Source of the DNA: a virus | Strand: one strand, 5' to 3' | Length of the DNA: 26,114 nucleotides | IMG/VR virus record: IMGVR_UViG_3300046010_004062 | Location: 1 to 26,114 of that record | Shown: positions 875-23,798 of the stretch, piece after piece | Layout: every line of letters begins with the position of its first letter | How positions within the stretch are numbered: the first letter of the stretch is position 1 | Made by a program: the position numbers and the translations under genes | Notes under the pieces: model-generated | Databases searched by the model: none | Seen by the model: the letters and a program-made list of their open reading frames with translations, nothing else | What the model was told of the DNA's origin: nothing

Positions 875-882
875 TATAAATA
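875..882 (+). promoter_or_regulatory. T4-type late promoter before the scaffold gene
   Basis: A perfect TATAAATA, the T4 late promoter consensus recognised by gp55-bound RNA polymerase, lies 26 bases before the scaffold ATG at 909. It leaves room for a short leader carrying an AAGGA ribosome binding site near 894-898. Confidence 0.8.
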
Positions 883-1971: not shown

Positions 1972-1980
1972 TACTAAATA
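1972..1980 (+). promoter_or_regulatory. Probable late promoter before the major capsid gene
   Basis: TACTAAATA is a one-base variant of the TATAAATA late box. It ends 27 bases before the capsid ATG, almost the same spacing as the perfect box before the scaffold gene, and is followed by an AGGAG ribosome binding site at 1992-1996. Confidence 0.6.
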
Positions 1981-3420: not shown

Positions 3421-3443
3421 TTCATAACTTAACCTAACCTTCG

Positions 3444-3477
3444 AAAACCTCCCGAGAAATCGGGAGGTTTTTGTTTT
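3444..3477 (+). terminator. Intrinsic terminator after the major capsid gene
   Basis: A 12-bp perfect stem (3444-3455 with 3460-3471) containing CCTCCCGA closes on a GAAA tetraloop and runs into TTTTTGTTTT. It ends head-operon transcription just before the next late promoter. Confidence 0.93.
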
Positions 3478-3479
3478 AC

Positions 3480-3487
3480 CATAAATA
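3480..3487 (+). promoter_or_regulatory. Late promoter abutting the tail-tube-like gene
   Basis: CATAAATA, a one-base variant of TATAAATA, ends only 5 bases before the ATG at 3493. With T4-like spacing, transcription would start at or next to the A of ATG. No ribosome binding site fits in the gap. Confidence 0.65.
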
Positions 3488-3492
3488 TTTCT

Positions 3493-4032
3493 ATGAGTCT
3501 CTGTTCATCAAACATTAATCCACTCTACAACAGTTATTTTCGTCTGATATTTGGTCGTGGAACCAAGCAGATGGAACTAATGTGTCAGCGTGCAAATTTG
3601 CCTGGAATATCAATTCCAGATCAAAATCAGCCAACAGTTCTTGGTGTGACCATTCCTGTTCCAACCATGAGTGCAAATTTTGAATTATTGAATGTTGAAT
3701 TCATTGTGGATTCAGATCTTACAAACTGGAAAAATTTGTATTCTTGGATCCGAAATATTACAAACATTACAAATGATGTGGATCACAATCTCTTATATCA
3801 AGATTGGCATCATTTTGCAAATCTTTATTTGTTTGATCCTTCAAATAACTGCGAAGTTTTGCAAACAACTTTTCATTACATCATTCCAGTAAAATTAAAT
3901 GGCTTGGTATTTCAGGCCGATAGTAGTGATGCCATCATACAAAAAGCCACATGCAGTTTCAAATATTCATATTACGACATGTGGATAGATGGACAGGATG
4001 CAGTGCCCTCTGATGTCAGCGACGAAAATTAA
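3493..4032 (+). CDS. Tail-tube-like virion protein (gp19/gp3/gp54-type fold)
   Basis: A 179-residue protein with features of the phage tail-tube fold: N-terminal NPLYNSYFRLIFGR, then CQRANLPGISIP (a 'the-way-in-is-NLPG' signature common to tube and tube-cap proteins of T4-like marine phages), FELLNVEFIVDSDLTNW, and a C-terminal strand-rich CSFKYSYYDMW. In T4, gp19 builds the tube and gp3 and gp54 cap its ends; similar marine phages carry a gene 3 just after gene 23, so gp3 is a positional candidate. The N-terminal strand makes ATG 3493 the likely start, even though the late promoter is almost on top of it and no Shine-Dalgarno is visible. The stop overlaps by 3 bases the stop of the convergent gene, with no terminator between them. 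Confidence 0.75.
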   Translation: MSLCSSNINPLYNSYFRLIFGRGTKQMELMCQRANLPGISIPDQNQPTVLGVTIPVPTMSANFELLNVEFIVDSDLTNWKNLYSWIRNITNITNDVDHNLLYQDWHHFANLYLFDPSNNCEVLQTTFHYIIPVKLNGLVFQADSSDAIIQKATCSFKYSYYDMWIDGQDAVPSDVSDEN

Positions 4033-4705: not shown

Positions 4706-6214
4706 TTATTTATTTTTTCCAAGGTCTGTAAAAGACATCGAATGAACGGTGTAATCAAACTTTTCTTTTTTGTAAATCTTCACACGCTCTTCGAAATGTC
4801 TGTAGATATGATTTTTGTGAGACTTCCAACAAAGATCGTCAACAATATCATATACTTTGAGTGTTTTCTTTTTCTCTGACACTCTAAGACCACGGCCAAT
4901 GCTTTGAAGCAATCTTATAATCGATTTAGTAGGTGAAGCAAAAATAATATTGTCAAGATTGACAATGTTGATGCCAGTGCTAGTCGTACCAAAACTGGCC
5001 ACCAGAATGGCGTTTGATTCTTTGTCGATGACTTTACGGATGTATTCTCTTGAATCTGCTTCTGTTTTTCCGTGTATGAGATATATTTTGCGATCCGTTC
5101 CCGCTGCTTCCAAGAGAGCTGCGAGTGGTTTACCGTGGTCTTCGACGTAATTAAAGAGGACAAGGGTATTCCCCTTGGTGCGGAGGGCGAGTTCTTTGAT
5201 GAATTCGTTTCGCTTTTCATTCGTTACGATCCATTTCAATTCATCAATGTATTTTTGTTTCTTGATGAATTGCTTCTCCTCATCATTATATTTAAGAATT
5301 ATGCAATCTATGCCGAGTTTTGCAAGCAATCCTTTGTTCATCAACCCCTTGGTTTGAATGAACTGAATCGCAGGACCAAGAATGCCTTCGATGCTAAGTC
5401 GATGAGCCTGTGCCTGATCTAGCGTACCTGTAGTACCAATTCGAAACCAAGCCTTTGAGAGTTTTTGACCAATGAAGTTGATTGATTCGGCTTTGGCTTG
5501 ATGACACTCATCGAAGAAGACGGCATCGAACTGGTCAAACCAAGTCTTTGGGAGTTTGTATATCGACTGCCATGTAGAAACCACAACCTGTCTGTTGAGT
5601 TCCTTTTCTGCCCCAGCCATGATTTTTTGAATGTACTTCTTGCAGGACCAAGACTTGTCGTTCTTTGAATAGTCAAAGAAGTCTGATTCCATCTGATTCA
5701 CCAGACCAACCGTGGGAACTAAAATAAGTATTTTCCGATCTGACTTTAATACGGATTGAAGAAACCGGACCAAGACGTATATGATCAAACTTTTGCCCGA
5801 ACCAGTAGGAGAAATCAGCACGCATCTGTGTTGATTCAAAGCATGCAGTATGGCCTGCTGTTGATGAGAATGCATTTTCACTGCTTGTTTCTTTACCGAA
5901 ACCTGCAATGTATCGTAGAACTGTAAAAGTTTGTCCTCCGTGATGCATAGAGGATTTTTTGTCTCTTTAATATTTAGTTGGTATTGTCGTTCTTTACAAA
6001 ATTTTTCTAGATAAGTTTTCAATCCACGGGGAAGAGTGGAAGAAAGAATGTCGAACAATCTTATTCGCCCATCCCAAATTCTTTTTTTGAATAAAGGCAT
6101 ATATTGAGCACCTGGAACCATGAATGAAAAATAGTCCCTTAACTCTTGTTTTATGCCTTTGTCGGTCTTCACATAATACCGAACTTCATCAATAGAATCA
6201 ACTTCAATATCCAC
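4706..6214 (-). CDS. uvsW: UvsW-like SF2 DNA helicase
   Basis: Helicase that in T4 unwinds R-loops and branched recombination intermediates, shutting off origin replication and promoting recombination-dependent replication. 502 residues, the usual length. The N-terminal domain matches UvsW (ELRDYFSF near 24-31 and WDGRIRLFD near 47-55). Helicase motifs in order: Walker A PTGSGKS at 136-142, DECH at 235-238, TTGT at 261-264, ASFGTTSTGINI at 406-417, and the arginine-finger motif QSIGRGLR at 437-444. All key residues are present. It lies 7 bases after the uvsY stop, so the pair is co-transcribed from the promoter near 6695-6722. Confidence 0.96.
   Translation of the reverse strand: MDIEVDSIDEVRYYVKTDKGIKQELRDYFSFMVPGAQYMPLFKKRIWDGRIRLFDILSSTLPRGLKTYLEKFCKERQYQLNIKETKNPLCITEDKLLQFYDTLQVSVKKQAVKMHSHQQQAILHALNQHRCVLISPTGSGKSLIIYVLVRFLQSVLKSDRKILILVPTVGLVNQMESDFFDYSKNDKSWSCKKYIQKIMAGAEKELNRQVVVSTWQSIYKLPKTWFDQFDAVFFDECHQAKAESINFIGQKLSKAWFRIGTTGTLDQAQAHRLSIEGILGPAIQFIQTKGLMNKGLLAKLGIDCIILKYNDEEKQFIKKQKYIDELKWIVTNEKRNEFIKELALRTKGNTLVLFNYVEDHGKPLAALLEAAGTDRKIYLIHGKTEADSREYIRKVIDKESNAILVASFGTTSTGINIVNLDNIIFASPTKSIIRLLQSIGRGLRVSEKKKTLKVYDIVDDLCWKSHKNHIYRHFEERVKIYKKEKFDYTVHSMSFTDLGKNK
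4707..4714 (-). promoter_or_regulatory. Possible late promoter for the Sm-like gene
   Basis: On the minus strand AATAAATA (one mismatch to TATAAATA) overlaps the uvsW stop codon. It ends 18 bases before the ATG, upstream of a strong AGGAGG ribosome binding site. The box is partly fixed by coding sequence, so it may be chance. Confidence 0.4.
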
Positions 6215-6221
6215 ATAATAT

Positions 6222-6659
6222 TTAGACTATGCCATTCATCATTTTGTTCCACTCAATGGCAGACTTGATGGCAAAGTTTCTATTATTGAGTGCTTTCAAA
6301 AATTCTTCCACCATTTTAATTTTAATTTCTGTGACAGAAATTTTTGACTTAAGTTCAATTAGTTTTGGATCTGCGTCCATGAATTTATCAACATCTGTCT
6401 TTAAAATATCCAATTCAAACGGTTCTTCTTTCCAGTCTGCAAGTTCTTCTTCAGAAGCCTTGCCAGTGTAAATTTTCCATTTACGCAAACGCAAAATGGC
6501 AAAGTCATGTTGGTACTTCGTCAAAAGTAATTTAAGATCCGTAAGTTGATTAAGATACTTGGAGTGTATTTGAGGTATCTTAAGAGACTCTATACCTAGT
6601 TCTGTAGAGTCTATTTGAGAGTCTTTAGTTATAGAGTTCTTTAGTTCTTCTAGATTCAT
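6222..6659 (-). CDS. uvsY: UvsY-like recombination mediator
   Basis: Loads the UvsX recombinase onto gp32-coated single-stranded DNA. Recognised from the N-terminal pattern LEELKNSITKDSQIDSTEL, which follows T4 UvsY (LEDL...KKD..IDSTKL), the central charged helical region, and the ending NRNFAIKSAIEWNKM (T4: SRGFAIKHIQDMRAF). At 145 residues it is close to T4 UvsY (137). It is first in the minus-strand operon, followed 7 bases later by uvsW. The start is preceded only by a weak AAAG, so initiation may be modest. The leader from the predicted start near 6688 is about 28 bases and rich in AGAAC/CTTTAAAG repeats. The uvsX partner is not in the window. Confidence 0.9.
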   Translation of the reverse strand: MNLEELKNSITKDSQIDSTELGIESLKIPQIHSKYLNQLTDLKLLLTKYQHDFAILRLRKWKIYTGKASEEELADWKEEPFELDILKTDVDKFMDADPKLIELKSKISVTEIKIKMVEEFLKALNNRNFAIKSAIEWNKMMNGIV

Positions 6660-6716: not shown

Positions 6717-6722
6717 AGTCAA
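6695..6722 (-). promoter_or_regulatory. Sigma70-like promoter for the uvsY-uvsW operon
   Basis: On the minus strand TTGACT (5 of 6 to the -35 consensus, 6722-6717) and TATAGT (5 of 6, 6700-6695) are separated by 16 bases. Predicted start is near 6688, about 28 bases before the uvsY ATG. Confidence 0.65.
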
Positions 6723-6737
6723 ATAAATATATTTGAC
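6718..6737. promoter_or_regulatory. Perfect palindrome between divergent promoters
   Basis: Eight-base arms GTCAAATA (6718-6725) and TATTTGAC (6730-6737) flank a 4-base centre. Each arm contains most of one -35 box, of the uvsY promoter on one side and the sugar cassette promoter on the other. It may be an operator, or it may simply reflect two back-to-back -35 boxes. Confidence 0.6.
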
Positions 6738-6760
6738 ATTTCTTTATTATGTCTTATATT
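6733..6760 (+). promoter_or_regulatory. Sigma70-like promoter for the sugar cassette
   Basis: TTGACA (perfect -35, 6733-6738) and TATATT (5 of 6 to the -10 consensus, 6755-6760) are 16 bases apart. The predicted start near 6767 leaves a leader of only about 7 bases before the ATG at 6774 and no Shine-Dalgarno. It is the only convincing promoter seen for the whole 6774-16215 block. Confidence 0.7.
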
Positions 6761-6773
6761 ATTGTGAGTACTT

Positions 6774-16285: not shown

Positions 16286-16855
16286 GTGAAAAAAGCCAAA
16301 AAGAAAAAAGCCAAGCCATCGGATGCTGATTATGTAGACAATCAGCAGCTCTACGATGCCTTGGTTGAATACAAAAAGAAGTGCAAGGACGCAGATAACT
16401 CTGGAAGAAAGAAGCCAAAGTTACCAGATTACATCGGTGAGTGTGTATTGAAGATAGCAAGCCGATTGTCATATAGACCAAATTTTGCAAACTATTCCTA
16501 TAGAGACGAAATGGTATCTGATGCCGTTTTAAATTGCATAACATACATAGACAATTTTGATCCTAAGCGTTCAACCAGCCCATTTGGTTATCTAACCCAA
16601 ATTTGCTGGTTTTCTTTTGTGCGTATAATCAACAAAGAAAAGAAAGAAAAGTATGTTCAATATAAGTTTGCAGAACAACAGAACAACAAAGACTTTCAAA
16701 ATTGGTTCAATGAAACCTATGCTGGAATGGATATCGGAAGACGAGATTTTTTTGGTCTGACCGATTCCGACATGGTAAGGTTTGATGAAATGTGTCAGCC
16801 AAAAAAGGCAAAAAGAAAAAAGCGAAAGCCAAAGCCAGATCCGTTTGATCTATGA
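16286..16855 (+). CDS. 55: gp55-like late sigma factor
   Basis: Divergent sigma factor that replaces host sigma70 and directs RNA polymerase to TATAAATA late promoters, coupled to the sliding clamp. Family pattern: YVDNQQLYDALVEYKKK at about 15-31, YIGECVLKIASRLSYRPNFA, YRDEMVSDAVLNCITYIDNF, then SPFGYLTQICWFSFVRIINK, matching T4 gp55 in order and spacing. 189 residues (T4 185). Lys-rich at both ends; the terminal DPFDL may be the clamp-binding tip, by analogy. Start is GTG 16286; the only nearby ATG (16284) is followed directly by TGA in another frame, and the next in-frame ATG is deep in the domain. Overlaps gene 47 by ATGA. Confidence 0.93.
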   Translation: MKKAKKKKAKPSDADYVDNQQLYDALVEYKKKCKDADNSGRKKPKLPDYIGECVLKIASRLSYRPNFANYSYRDEMVSDAVLNCITYIDNFDPKRSTSPFGYLTQICWFSFVRIINKEKKEKYVQYKFAEQQNNKDFQNWFNETYAGMDIGRRDFFGLTDSDMVRFDEMCQPKKAKRKKRKPKPDPFDL

Positions 16856-17898
16856 AAGCAATAATTCTTAACGACACCCACTTTGGATACAAGAATGATT
16901 CGTGCATAGTTCTTGATTACTTCCTTGATTTCTTCACAGAAGAGTTGTTTCCTTACATGAAGGAGCACAACATCAAGACTATCTTCCATCTGGGGGATCT
17001 TTTTGACAGGAGAAAATATGTCAATTTTAAGACGCTTCACAGAGTTCAAAAAGAGTTTTTTGACCCATTACTTGAGATGGGTATCAAAGTCCACATCATC
17101 TGTGGAAACCATGATACCTATTATCGTAACACCAATGCAATCAATTCCTTGCAGGAACTCGCTGGACATTATTCGAATTGGTCAGTATATTCAGAGCCGA
17201 CCAATGTTCATCTTTCCTGCGGTTGTGTCGCACTACTCCCGTGGATAAACCCGGAAAACGAAGATCAAGCAGCAAAGTTTCTTGCAGACAACACCTGTTC
17301 GGTTTTGTTGGGCCATCTTGAACTTTTTGGATTTCAAAGCATCCGTGGTGTGTTTATAGAGCAAGGTTATGATCCCAAACATTTCGATAAGTTTGAGTAC
17401 GTTCTTACTGGGCATTATCACATTAAGTCTAGCCGTGACAATATTCATTATCTCGGAACGCAATACCAAATGGGCTTTTCTGACGTTTGGGAGGAAAAGG
17501 GCTTCCATGTCTTCGACTTTCAGGATCGTACTCTTGCATTTGTCAAGAATACCAGAAAGTTATTCCATACGATTGATTATGACGAAGACAACAAAGAAAA
17601 ACTAGATCATTCCCAGTTCAAGGATTGTTATGTGAAGATCTTCGTGAAAAACAAGACAAAACCTGTATTGTTTGAAAAATATCTAGACAAGTTCTATGAG
17701 GCTGGCGTTGCAGAGTTAGTGGTTGCAGAAGAAGTTTCGGCAAACCCGGAATTGGTGGCTGTGGACATTCACAAAGACACGCTGCAACTTCTGCACGAAG
17801 AAATAGAAACAATCAACGAGAAGTCAATTCAAAAACCGTTGCTTGCCGAGATCATAAATGCAGCTTACAATAATGCATTGTCCAAGGAAGAAGAATGA
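16852..17898 (+). CDS. 47: gp47-like recombination nuclease subunit (Mre11/SbcD type)
   Basis: Nuclease half of the gp46/gp47 complex, which resects double-strand ends for recombination and degrades host DNA in T4. All metal-binding motifs of the Mre11 phosphoesterase family are visible: LNDTHFG (6-12), HLGDLFDRR (46-54), CGNHDTY (84-90), LLGHLE (152-157) and LTGHYHIKS (185-193). 348 residues, close to T4 gp47 (339). Start codon inside the gene 55 stop (ATGA at 16852-16855) and stop overlaps the gene 46 start in the same way, so 55-47-46 form one coupled unit. Confidence 0.97.
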   Translation: MKAIILNDTHFGYKNDSCIVLDYFLDFFTEELFPYMKEHNIKTIFHLGDLFDRRKYVNFKTLHRVQKEFFDPLLEMGIKVHIICGNHDTYYRNTNAINSLQELAGHYSNWSVYSEPTNVHLSCGCVALLPWINPENEDQAAKFLADNTCSVLLGHLELFGFQSIRGVFIEQGYDPKHFDKFEYVLTGHYHIKSSRDNIHYLGTQYQMGFSDVWEEKGFHVFDFQDRTLAFVKNTRKLFHTIDYDEDNKEKLDHSQFKDCYVKIFVKNKTKPVLFEKYLDKFYEAGVAELVVAEEVSANPELVAVDIHKDTLQLLHEEIETINEKSIQKPLLAEIINAAYNNALSKEEE

Positions 17899-19616
17899 TT
17901 GAATTTGTATCAGTAAAGTTTAAAAACTTTGGATCATTCGGAAACAATTACTCCGAGATCAAACTAAACAACAACAAGACAACCTTGGTCACCGGGACAA
18001 ACGGGAACGGAAAGTCTTTTGCTCTTCTGGATTCCTTGTGCTTTGGATTATTCGGAAAGCCATTCCGCCCAATCAACATTCCTCAGTTGGTGAATTCAGT
18101 CAACAATCGCCATTGCATGGTTGAGATTGAATTCAAGCGGTCAGGATCAACATACATCGTCAAAAGAGGTCTAAGTCCAAAAATATTTGAGATCTACAAA
18201 GATGGTGAGATGCTTGATCAACATGCCAAGTCAAAGGATTACCAAGAACACTTTGAGGAACAGATTCTGGGCTTTGATTACGCAGCATTCAAGCAAGTCG
18301 TAATTCTAGGCAAGTCAAACTTTATTCCGTTCATGCAGTTGACACCCAATGAAAGACGAAAGATCATCGAAGGTCTTTTGGATCTTGATATTTTGGCTGA
18401 CATGAATGTCTATGTTCGTGGTGAACTCTCTAAACTCAAGACCGAGATATCTGAAGAAGAGAGTTTTGTAAAGATTGCCCATGAAAAGGTAAAGTCTTTA
18501 AATGAGCTAAAAACTCAGATCGATAACACCAAAAATTTGGAGTTAGCCGAATACGAAGATAAAATTGTAGAACTTAAAGAATCCGTAAAGTCAGAGGAAA
18601 CTTTTATTCGAAATAAAGTAACTGAACTTACAGATCTTGAAAATTTAAAGAAAGAACACAGTTCTAGGATCGCTTCTATGGCCGGGGTTCCCACAATGCA
18701 CTCCAAGGCACTGGAACTCCAAGAATCGCTTATAGGGCAAATAAACACTCTAGAAACAGATCCAAAGTGCACTTGCTGCGGTCAAACTTTGCCAGAAGAG
18801 GCCAGACAGAAGCATTTGGAGGAGAAAAGAGAAAAATTGGCTTCTTGTAAGAAATCCTTACAGGTTGGTGACAAAAAACTCAAAGAACTTGAAAATTTGA
18901 AGGTTGAAGTAGAAACTTTAAATCAAAAGATCTTGGAATTAAATATTTTGCAGGCACAGGGTGTCACCCGTAAGAATGGCTTCAACAATGAAATTTTGTC
19001 TTTGAATCAAAAAATTGCTAAAATAAAAAAGACCTCAAGTGAATCTGAGATCAATACAAAGATCGAAGAAGCAATTGCAGAAAAGGACAAACATGCCAAG
19101 GCTTTGGAGAGCGCCATCAGCAAACAAATTCACCACGACGTTGTTTACGACATTCTCAAGGATGGTGGGCTTAAGAGTCGCATCATCAAGCATTATGTTC
19201 CCATCATCAATGGACTCGTCAACAAGTTCCTCGGAAAACTCAATCTCTATGTTGACTTCCATATCGATGAGGAATTCAAGGAAACAATCAAGTCACGATA
19301 CCGAGATGCATTCTCATATTCCTCTTTCTCTGAGGGAGAGAAACAGCGTATCGATTTGGCCATTCTCCTGACTTGGAGAGAGATTGCAAAGATGAAGAAC
19401 AGCCTGAATTGCAATCTGCTCATCTTTGATGAGATTCTTGATTCTTCTTTGGATTCGACTGGAACTGAATCGTTCTTGAAGTTATTGAACAAGATGAAGA
19501 GCAAGTGTTCGATCTTCATCATCAGCCACAAGGCAGATGCGCTGACTGACAAGTTCGACCAACAGATGCAATTTGAGAAGAAAAACAACTTCTCAAGAAT
19601 CAAGGCTCAAGTCTAA
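17895..19616 (+). CDS. 46: gp46-like recombination ATPase subunit (Rad50/SbcC type)
   Basis: ATPase partner of gp47. Walker A GTNGNGKS at 34-41, Q-loop region VVILGKSNFIPFMQL near 135-149, long coiled-coil arms (about 175-285 and 300-405) broken by a zinc hook CTCC at 292-295, signature SSFSEGEKQRIDLA (476-489), Walker B LLIFDE (508-513), D-loop SSLD (517-520) and switch His 545. Complete at 573 residues (T4 560). ATGA overlap with gene 47. Its stop codon lies within the TCTAAATA box of the next gene. Confidence 0.97.
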   Translation: MIEFVSVKFKNFGSFGNNYSEIKLNNNKTTLVTGTNGNGKSFALLDSLCFGLFGKPFRPINIPQLVNSVNNRHCMVEIEFKRSGSTYIVKRGLSPKIFEIYKDGEMLDQHAKSKDYQEHFEEQILGFDYAAFKQVVILGKSNFIPFMQLTPNERRKIIEGLLDLDILADMNVYVRGELSKLKTEISEEESFVKIAHEKVKSLNELKTQIDNTKNLELAEYEDKIVELKESVKSEETFIRNKVTELTDLENLKKEHSSRIASMAGVPTMHSKALELQESLIGQINTLETDPKCTCCGQTLPEEARQKHLEEKREKLASCKKSLQVGDKKLKELENLKVEVETLNQKILELNILQAQGVTRKNGFNNEILSLNQKIAKIKKTSSESEINTKIEEAIAEKDKHAKALESAISKQIHHDVVYDILKDGGLKSRIIKHYVPIINGLVNKFLGKLNLYVDFHIDEEFKETIKSRYRDAFSYSSFSEGEKQRIDLAILLTWREIAKMKNSLNCNLLIFDEILDSSLDSTGTESFLKLLNKMKSKCSIFIISHKADALTDKFDQQMQFEKKNNFSRIKAQV

Positions 19617-19619
19617 ATA
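19612..19619 (+). promoter_or_regulatory. Probable late promoter overlapping the gene 46 stop
   Basis: TCTAAATA (two mismatches to TATAAATA, same CTAAATA core as the box before the capsid gene) ends 7 bases before the ATG at 19627, with no Shine-Dalgarno in between. It would give a late transcript with a leader of only a few bases. Confidence 0.5.
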
Positions 19620-23790: not shown

Positions 23791-23798
23791 TATAAATA
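23791..23798 (+). promoter_or_regulatory. T4-type late promoter abutting the tail gene at 23807
   Basis: Perfect TATAAATA ending 8 bases before the ATG, with no Shine-Dalgarno in the gap. Predicted start gives a leader of about 3 bases. Confidence 0.78.

Follow-up and report, generated by a model that had tools for sequence, protein, structure and literature searches.

The late transcription of phage T4 is a textbook system, in which the mRNAs carry leaders and Shine-Dalgarno (SD) sites. Start codons in T4 lie at least 12 nt past the late promoter box and are mostly preceded by an SD; the single ATG found at a spacing of 5 nt stands behind a CTAAATA box that is atypical of T4. The promoter itself (TATAAATA) is served by gp55, gp33, and gp45. 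The T4 late box spans positions -13 to -6 (PMC1524935), and +1 is therefore the sixth base after the box; at spacing 5, this base would be the A of the ATG. The phage DNA described here has the same box and the same purine six bases on, and it encodes a gp55 homolog.

The cI mRNA of phage lambda is leaderless. Leaderless mRNAs, which start on the AUG and lack an SD, are known in bacteria such as mycobacteria (PMC4633059). A search of the open-access literature turned up no earlier account of T4-like phages whose late mRNAs are leaderless, and nothing relevant on leaderless transcripts of SAR11. Late-promoter prediction in pelagimyophages has been reported to be unsuccessful (PMC7029224).

We analyzed a window of 26,114 bp, an IMG/VR fragment of a T4-like phage from freshwater. 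The gene that follows its capsid gene very probably has a gp55-dependent T4-type late promoter whose +1 is the A of the start codon; its mRNA would be leaderless, and the gene would be part of a genome-wide class that many aquatic relatives share.

A gp3 gene five nucleotides past a late box

The products with PHROG matches in the window include the gp22 scaffold (phrog_237), the gp23 capsid (phrog_138), UvsY (phrog_231), and the gp62 clamp loader (phrog_225), and the gene order resembles that of marine cyanomyophages. The features that concern gp3 and its transcription are the following:

875..882, + strand: late box of the gp22 scaffold gene; spacing 26, SD AAGGA; contrast class
1973..1980, + strand: late box ACTAAATA of the gp23 capsid gene; spacing 27, SD AGGAG; contrast class
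3442..3477, + strand: intrinsic terminator of gp23; stem 3442-3455/3460-3473, GAAA loop, U-rich tail; would insulate gp3 from capsid read-through
3480..3487, + strand: T4-type late promoter box CATAAATA; N[AC]TAAATA is invariant across relatives
3493..3493, + strand: predicted transcription start (+1), six bases past the box and on the A of the gp3 start codon; predicted from the box position
3493..4032, + strand: gene for the 179-aa gp3 tail tube terminator (tail completion protein); assigned by homology and synteny after gp23
16286..16855, + strand: gp55 late sigma factor (phrog_234, late sigma, E = 4.6e-52), the expected reader of the late boxes
20112: gp45-like ORF, assigned from gene order only

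From homology and gene order, we identify the gene at 3493 as that of the gp3 tail tube terminator and not of a generic tube protein, because its product has a single PDB match, to a gp3 tube terminator (E = 1.9e-8), its T4 match carries the annotation gene 3, its phage matches are mostly annotated as gp3 or tail completion proteins, and the gene stands after gp23. Indeed, the order gp22-gp23-gp3 is common to the window, P-HM2, and Bellamy. The product falls in phrog_45 (tail tube, E = 1.5e-29), and the first-pass annotation had named the gene tail-tube-like, a name that gp3 tube terminator replaces here. A generic tube protein (gp19) was considered for this gene, but PF06841 and PF23849 both scored below their curated cut-offs and gp3 was preferred.

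The spacer TTTCT (3488-3492) separates the box from the ATG at 3493. The start region is AU-rich, and no SD 4-mer was found upstream of this ATG, which is the sole in-frame ATG, GTG, or TTG ahead of the conserved gp3 N-terminus. Over codons 4-26, the differences among relatives are mostly in third positions, and most of the residues NxNPLYNSYF are retained; translation therefore starts at or very near the ATG at 3493. These results bear out what had been read from the letters of this site in the first-pass annotation, namely a box ending 5 bases before an ATG without an SD, genuine N-terminal residues, and, for the scaffold and capsid genes, boxes 26-27 nt upstream together with a ribosome binding site.

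Relatives were retrieved using gp3 and gp23 as queries. In the 46 distinct upstream sequences of the window's family, the arrangement N[AC]TAAATA, 5 nt, ATG was invariant, even though the gp3 proteins of this family diverge to ~46% identity. In the same set of contigs, the spacings of the SD class are not fixed (27-31 for gp23, mostly 20-28 for gp22, and 16-23 for ORF 4688(-)).

Two classes of late genes

A survey of box-to-ATG spacing, suggested earlier as a check, was run on eight long relatives (599 kb), where starts were taken from ORFs and not from a gene finder, and on the individual phages named below. We counted the ATGs opening an ORF of at least 50 aa at a given spacing after the late box and used permuted motifs as controls. 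ATGs at spacing 5 were enriched in each of the eight long relatives (per-contig P from 4e-4 to 7e-22), with 53 sites in total against ~1.3 expected. The pelagiphage HTVC008M had 12 such sites (P = 5e-16), and the class is genome-wide both there and in the relatives. The spike was gone with permuted motifs. P-HM2 and Melnitz had three spacing-5 sites each. An excess at spacing 5 was also sought in S-PM2 and in T4, Syn9, Bellamy, DLP6, Cr30, phiM12, and Milchi, none of which showed it; as the same rule for picking ORF starts yielded no spike in the last seven, an artifact of that rule was rejected.

Box-driven late genes fall into two classes, one with spacings of 5-8 and almost never an SD and one with spacings of 16-31 and mostly an SD. 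An SD was present in 0 of 54 genes at spacing 5, in 1 of ~100 at spacings 5-8, and in 64 of 83 at spacings 16-31. All 41 spacing-5 ORFs of at least 100 aa begin with ATG, and none with GTG or TTG. Within the window, the box-to-start spacings are 26 (gp22), 27 (gp23), 5 (gp3), 18 (4688(-)), 4 (the GTG of uvsW), 7 (gene 19627), and 8 (gene 23807).

Members of the predicted leaderless class include gp3, the gp13 neck protein, a head-closure protein, baseplate-related proteins, and a paralogous family without known function, while gp22, gp23, and a sheath-like gene belong to the SD class. This membership suggests a division between low-copy parts (leaderless) and high-copy parts (SD), as an incomplete rule. 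A simple stoichiometry rule fits only partly, as HTVC008M has SD leaders on the genes for its portal gp20, protease gp21, and wedge gp8.

A multi-copy paralogous family mostly starting with M(D/N)YLTNYYKNL was observed in the relatives L155, L156, L158, L166, L214, and L217. Its late box lies exactly 5 nt ahead of the ATG in 11/11 copies, and the one copy checked against PHROG had no match.

The predicted transcription start

As a sequence statistic, a purine occupies the sixth position after the box in 87% of the SD-class genes of the family, compared with 72% in T4, 100% in Melnitz, and 77% in cyanophages, a peak that places +1 at this base. At spacing 5, the A of the ATG takes this sixth position, and 85% of distinct sites have a pyrimidine at the fifth. 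The sixth base has also stayed a purine in 94% and 90% of the genes at spacings 7 and 8, respectively, which implies leaders of 2-3 nt for these genes. Three late boxes of the window lie close to a start codon without being at spacing 5:

19612..19619, + strand: box TCTAAATA, at spacing 7 from the start of gene 19627; +1 predicted at G 19625, 2-nt leader GA-AUG
23791..23798, + strand: box TATAAATA, at spacing 8 from the start of gene 23807; +1 predicted at G 23804, 3-nt leader GUA-AUG
6219..6226, - strand: late box TCTAAATA of uvsW, 4 nt ahead of the GTG start at 6214

Spacing 7 is common among the relatives of gene 19627, and spacing 8 of gene 23807 is conserved in G003 and G004. Both genes probably have leaders of 2-3 nt and are near-leaderless, only spacing 5 being strictly leaderless. 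The first-pass annotation had placed them with gp3 in a single class; this grouping holds in that all three genes lack an SD and stand apart from the scaffold and capsid genes, but it does not extend to the spacings, which are 7 and 8 with a G at the predicted +1.

The ORF ahead of gene 19627 (17895-19616, assigned as gp46 from gene order) has a stop codon that overlaps the late box of this gene, whose small product matches CBM5/12 weakly (E = 8e-6). The spacing of 4 to the GTG of uvsW was found in 18/19 distinct relatives of its cluster and in 7/8 long contigs; it is an exception, out of register with a strict sixth-base rule.

Genes at spacings 6-8 that are related to the spacing-5 class, and the purine retained at 7-8, are also what one would expect if the gp3 box were a real late promoter that initiates 1-3 nt upstream of the ATG, giving a very short leader and SD-less translation. 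We consider this unlikely for gp3, since its spacer contains no purine, its spacing is fixed at 5 instead of being spread across 5-8, and spacing-5 sites in general pair a pyrimidine at the fifth base with the A of the ATG at the sixth. The T4-type +1 can slip by one base, which would yield a 1-nt leader or the loss of the A of the AUG.

Initiation on the AUG itself is the best explanation of the gp3 site. A leaderless gp3 transcript had been proposed from the single site, and the comparative evidence now argues for it more strongly than the site does. Late RNA polymerase with gp55 would start on the gp3 AUG, the terminator just upstream would block capsid read-through into gp3, and the 5'-terminal AUG of the mRNA would be recognized directly, without an SD. 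The spacing-5 class, to which gp3 belongs, stands apart, with the near-leaderless genes at 6-8, from the late class with 16-31 nt and an SD. Where exactly +1 lies, that no leader is present in vivo, and that initiation is of the 70S type are predictions made from the sequences.

The terminator and the spacing of gp3 across phages

The strong terminator that had been placed upstream of gp3, at 3444-3477, was recovered. Its hairpin folds at -23.1 kcal/mol (z = -6.4), and compensatory changes occur in 3 of 8 counted pairs among 35 relatives (17 cells against 5.2 in shuffles). A terminator-like hairpin is present in 46/46 gp3 upstream sequences of the family. A simple terminator scan of the window missed the gp23 hairpin, probably because the stem takes up most of the T run.

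Marine gp3 loci, some of which overlap, were gathered with the HTVC008M and Melnitz capsids as queries. Outside the window's family, gp3 lies at spacing 5 at 80 loci, at 6-9 at 5 loci, and at 15 or more at ~33 (mostly with an SD), and it has no box at 23 loci. The boxless loci include the copies of P-HM2, Bellamy, and DLP6; the arrangement is thus not universal. The marine gp3 genes of the leaderless type have 70 distinct upstream sequences, and those of the SD type have spacings of 15-25 nt. The near-empty gap between the two states would be expected if +1 falls either on the AUG or far enough upstream for an SD. In a quick tree of gp23, the window's clade is leaderless in 46/46 cases and the Melnitz clade has SD leaders, and at least four switches are needed.

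It might be argued that gp3 is translated mainly from capsid read-through, independently of an SD (through S1 or the AU-rich region), with the box being secondary. The AU-rich start region without an SD would suit such a route, and terminators can leak. However, the terminator is strong, covaries, and is kept throughout the family; read-through offers nothing to fix the spacing at 5; and the switched gp3 forms gain an SD as their box moves out to 15-25 nt. We therefore regard this explanation as improbable. The genome is AT-rich, and boxes with at most one mismatch are frequent in it (80 found against 56 expected). Even so, we give next to no probability to the idea that the box match and its spacing reflect chance or common descent, which the sequence statistics refute: the spike is genome-wide against permuted-motif controls, and the arrangement is conserved both among divergent sequences and between separate clades.

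When a host was sought by contig association, neither a capsid relative nor an exact terminator-box match was found in a collection of genome contigs. A permuted tmRNA with the tag ANIKAAPMRMAA lies among several tRNAs in the relative L156 (1244-1643, - strand) and is a possible host clue. Elsewhere in the window, at 6718-6762, there is a palindrome, GTCAAATAAATATATTTGAC, whose right arm continues into a perfect TTGACA -35 element followed by a TATATT/TATTAT -10. The palindrome sits upstream of a glycosyltransferase-like variable region, its spacing of ~44 to the ATG is retained in many relatives, and it resembles an operator overlying a sigma-70 promoter.

Discussion

On comparative grounds, we regard the predicted leaderless late class as a real, lineage-specific variant of the T4 late promoter. 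Many late mRNAs appear to begin exactly on the AUG in a large set of T4-like phages that is common in the environment and to which the SAR11 phage HTVC008M belongs. One could speculate that the box-to-start distance is an evolved two-state switch, AUG-first for gp3, gp13, head closure, and baseplate parts and leader plus SD for gp22, gp23, and the sheath-like gene, which helps to set the amounts of assembly proteins and tracks how host ribosomes handle leaderless mRNA; we hold this idea only tentatively and think it rather doubtful. Leaderless and SD-led genes under one sigma factor in one cell form a natural set, suited to tests of how leaderless initiation works and what purpose it serves. 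The findings also supply a promoter and start-codon rule for the annotation of phages whose late promoters had reportedly resisted prediction (PMC7029224).

HTVC008M and its marine relatives have the spacing-5 class genome-wide, a gp3 of the leaderless type, and often a terminator directly upstream, as in the window, although their capsids form a clade distant from that of the window; the open-access search found no account of such a class in them. The marine cyanomyophages (Syn9, S-PM2, Bellamy, and P-HM2) share the NATAAATA/CTAAATA box and a similar core gene order but have nearly no genes at spacings of 9 or less, and their gp3 is boxless or has a longer leader, unlike that of the window. 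In the clade of the methylophage Melnitz, as in the window, gp3 comes after gp23, with a terminator and a late box between them; the box of this clade lies mostly 18-25 nt from the gp3 start, with an SD, which represents the alternative state. Compared with the leaderless mRNAs of bacteria, the difference is that here a phage-specific late sigma promoter would set the start, for a genome-wide class of genes in a T4-like phage.
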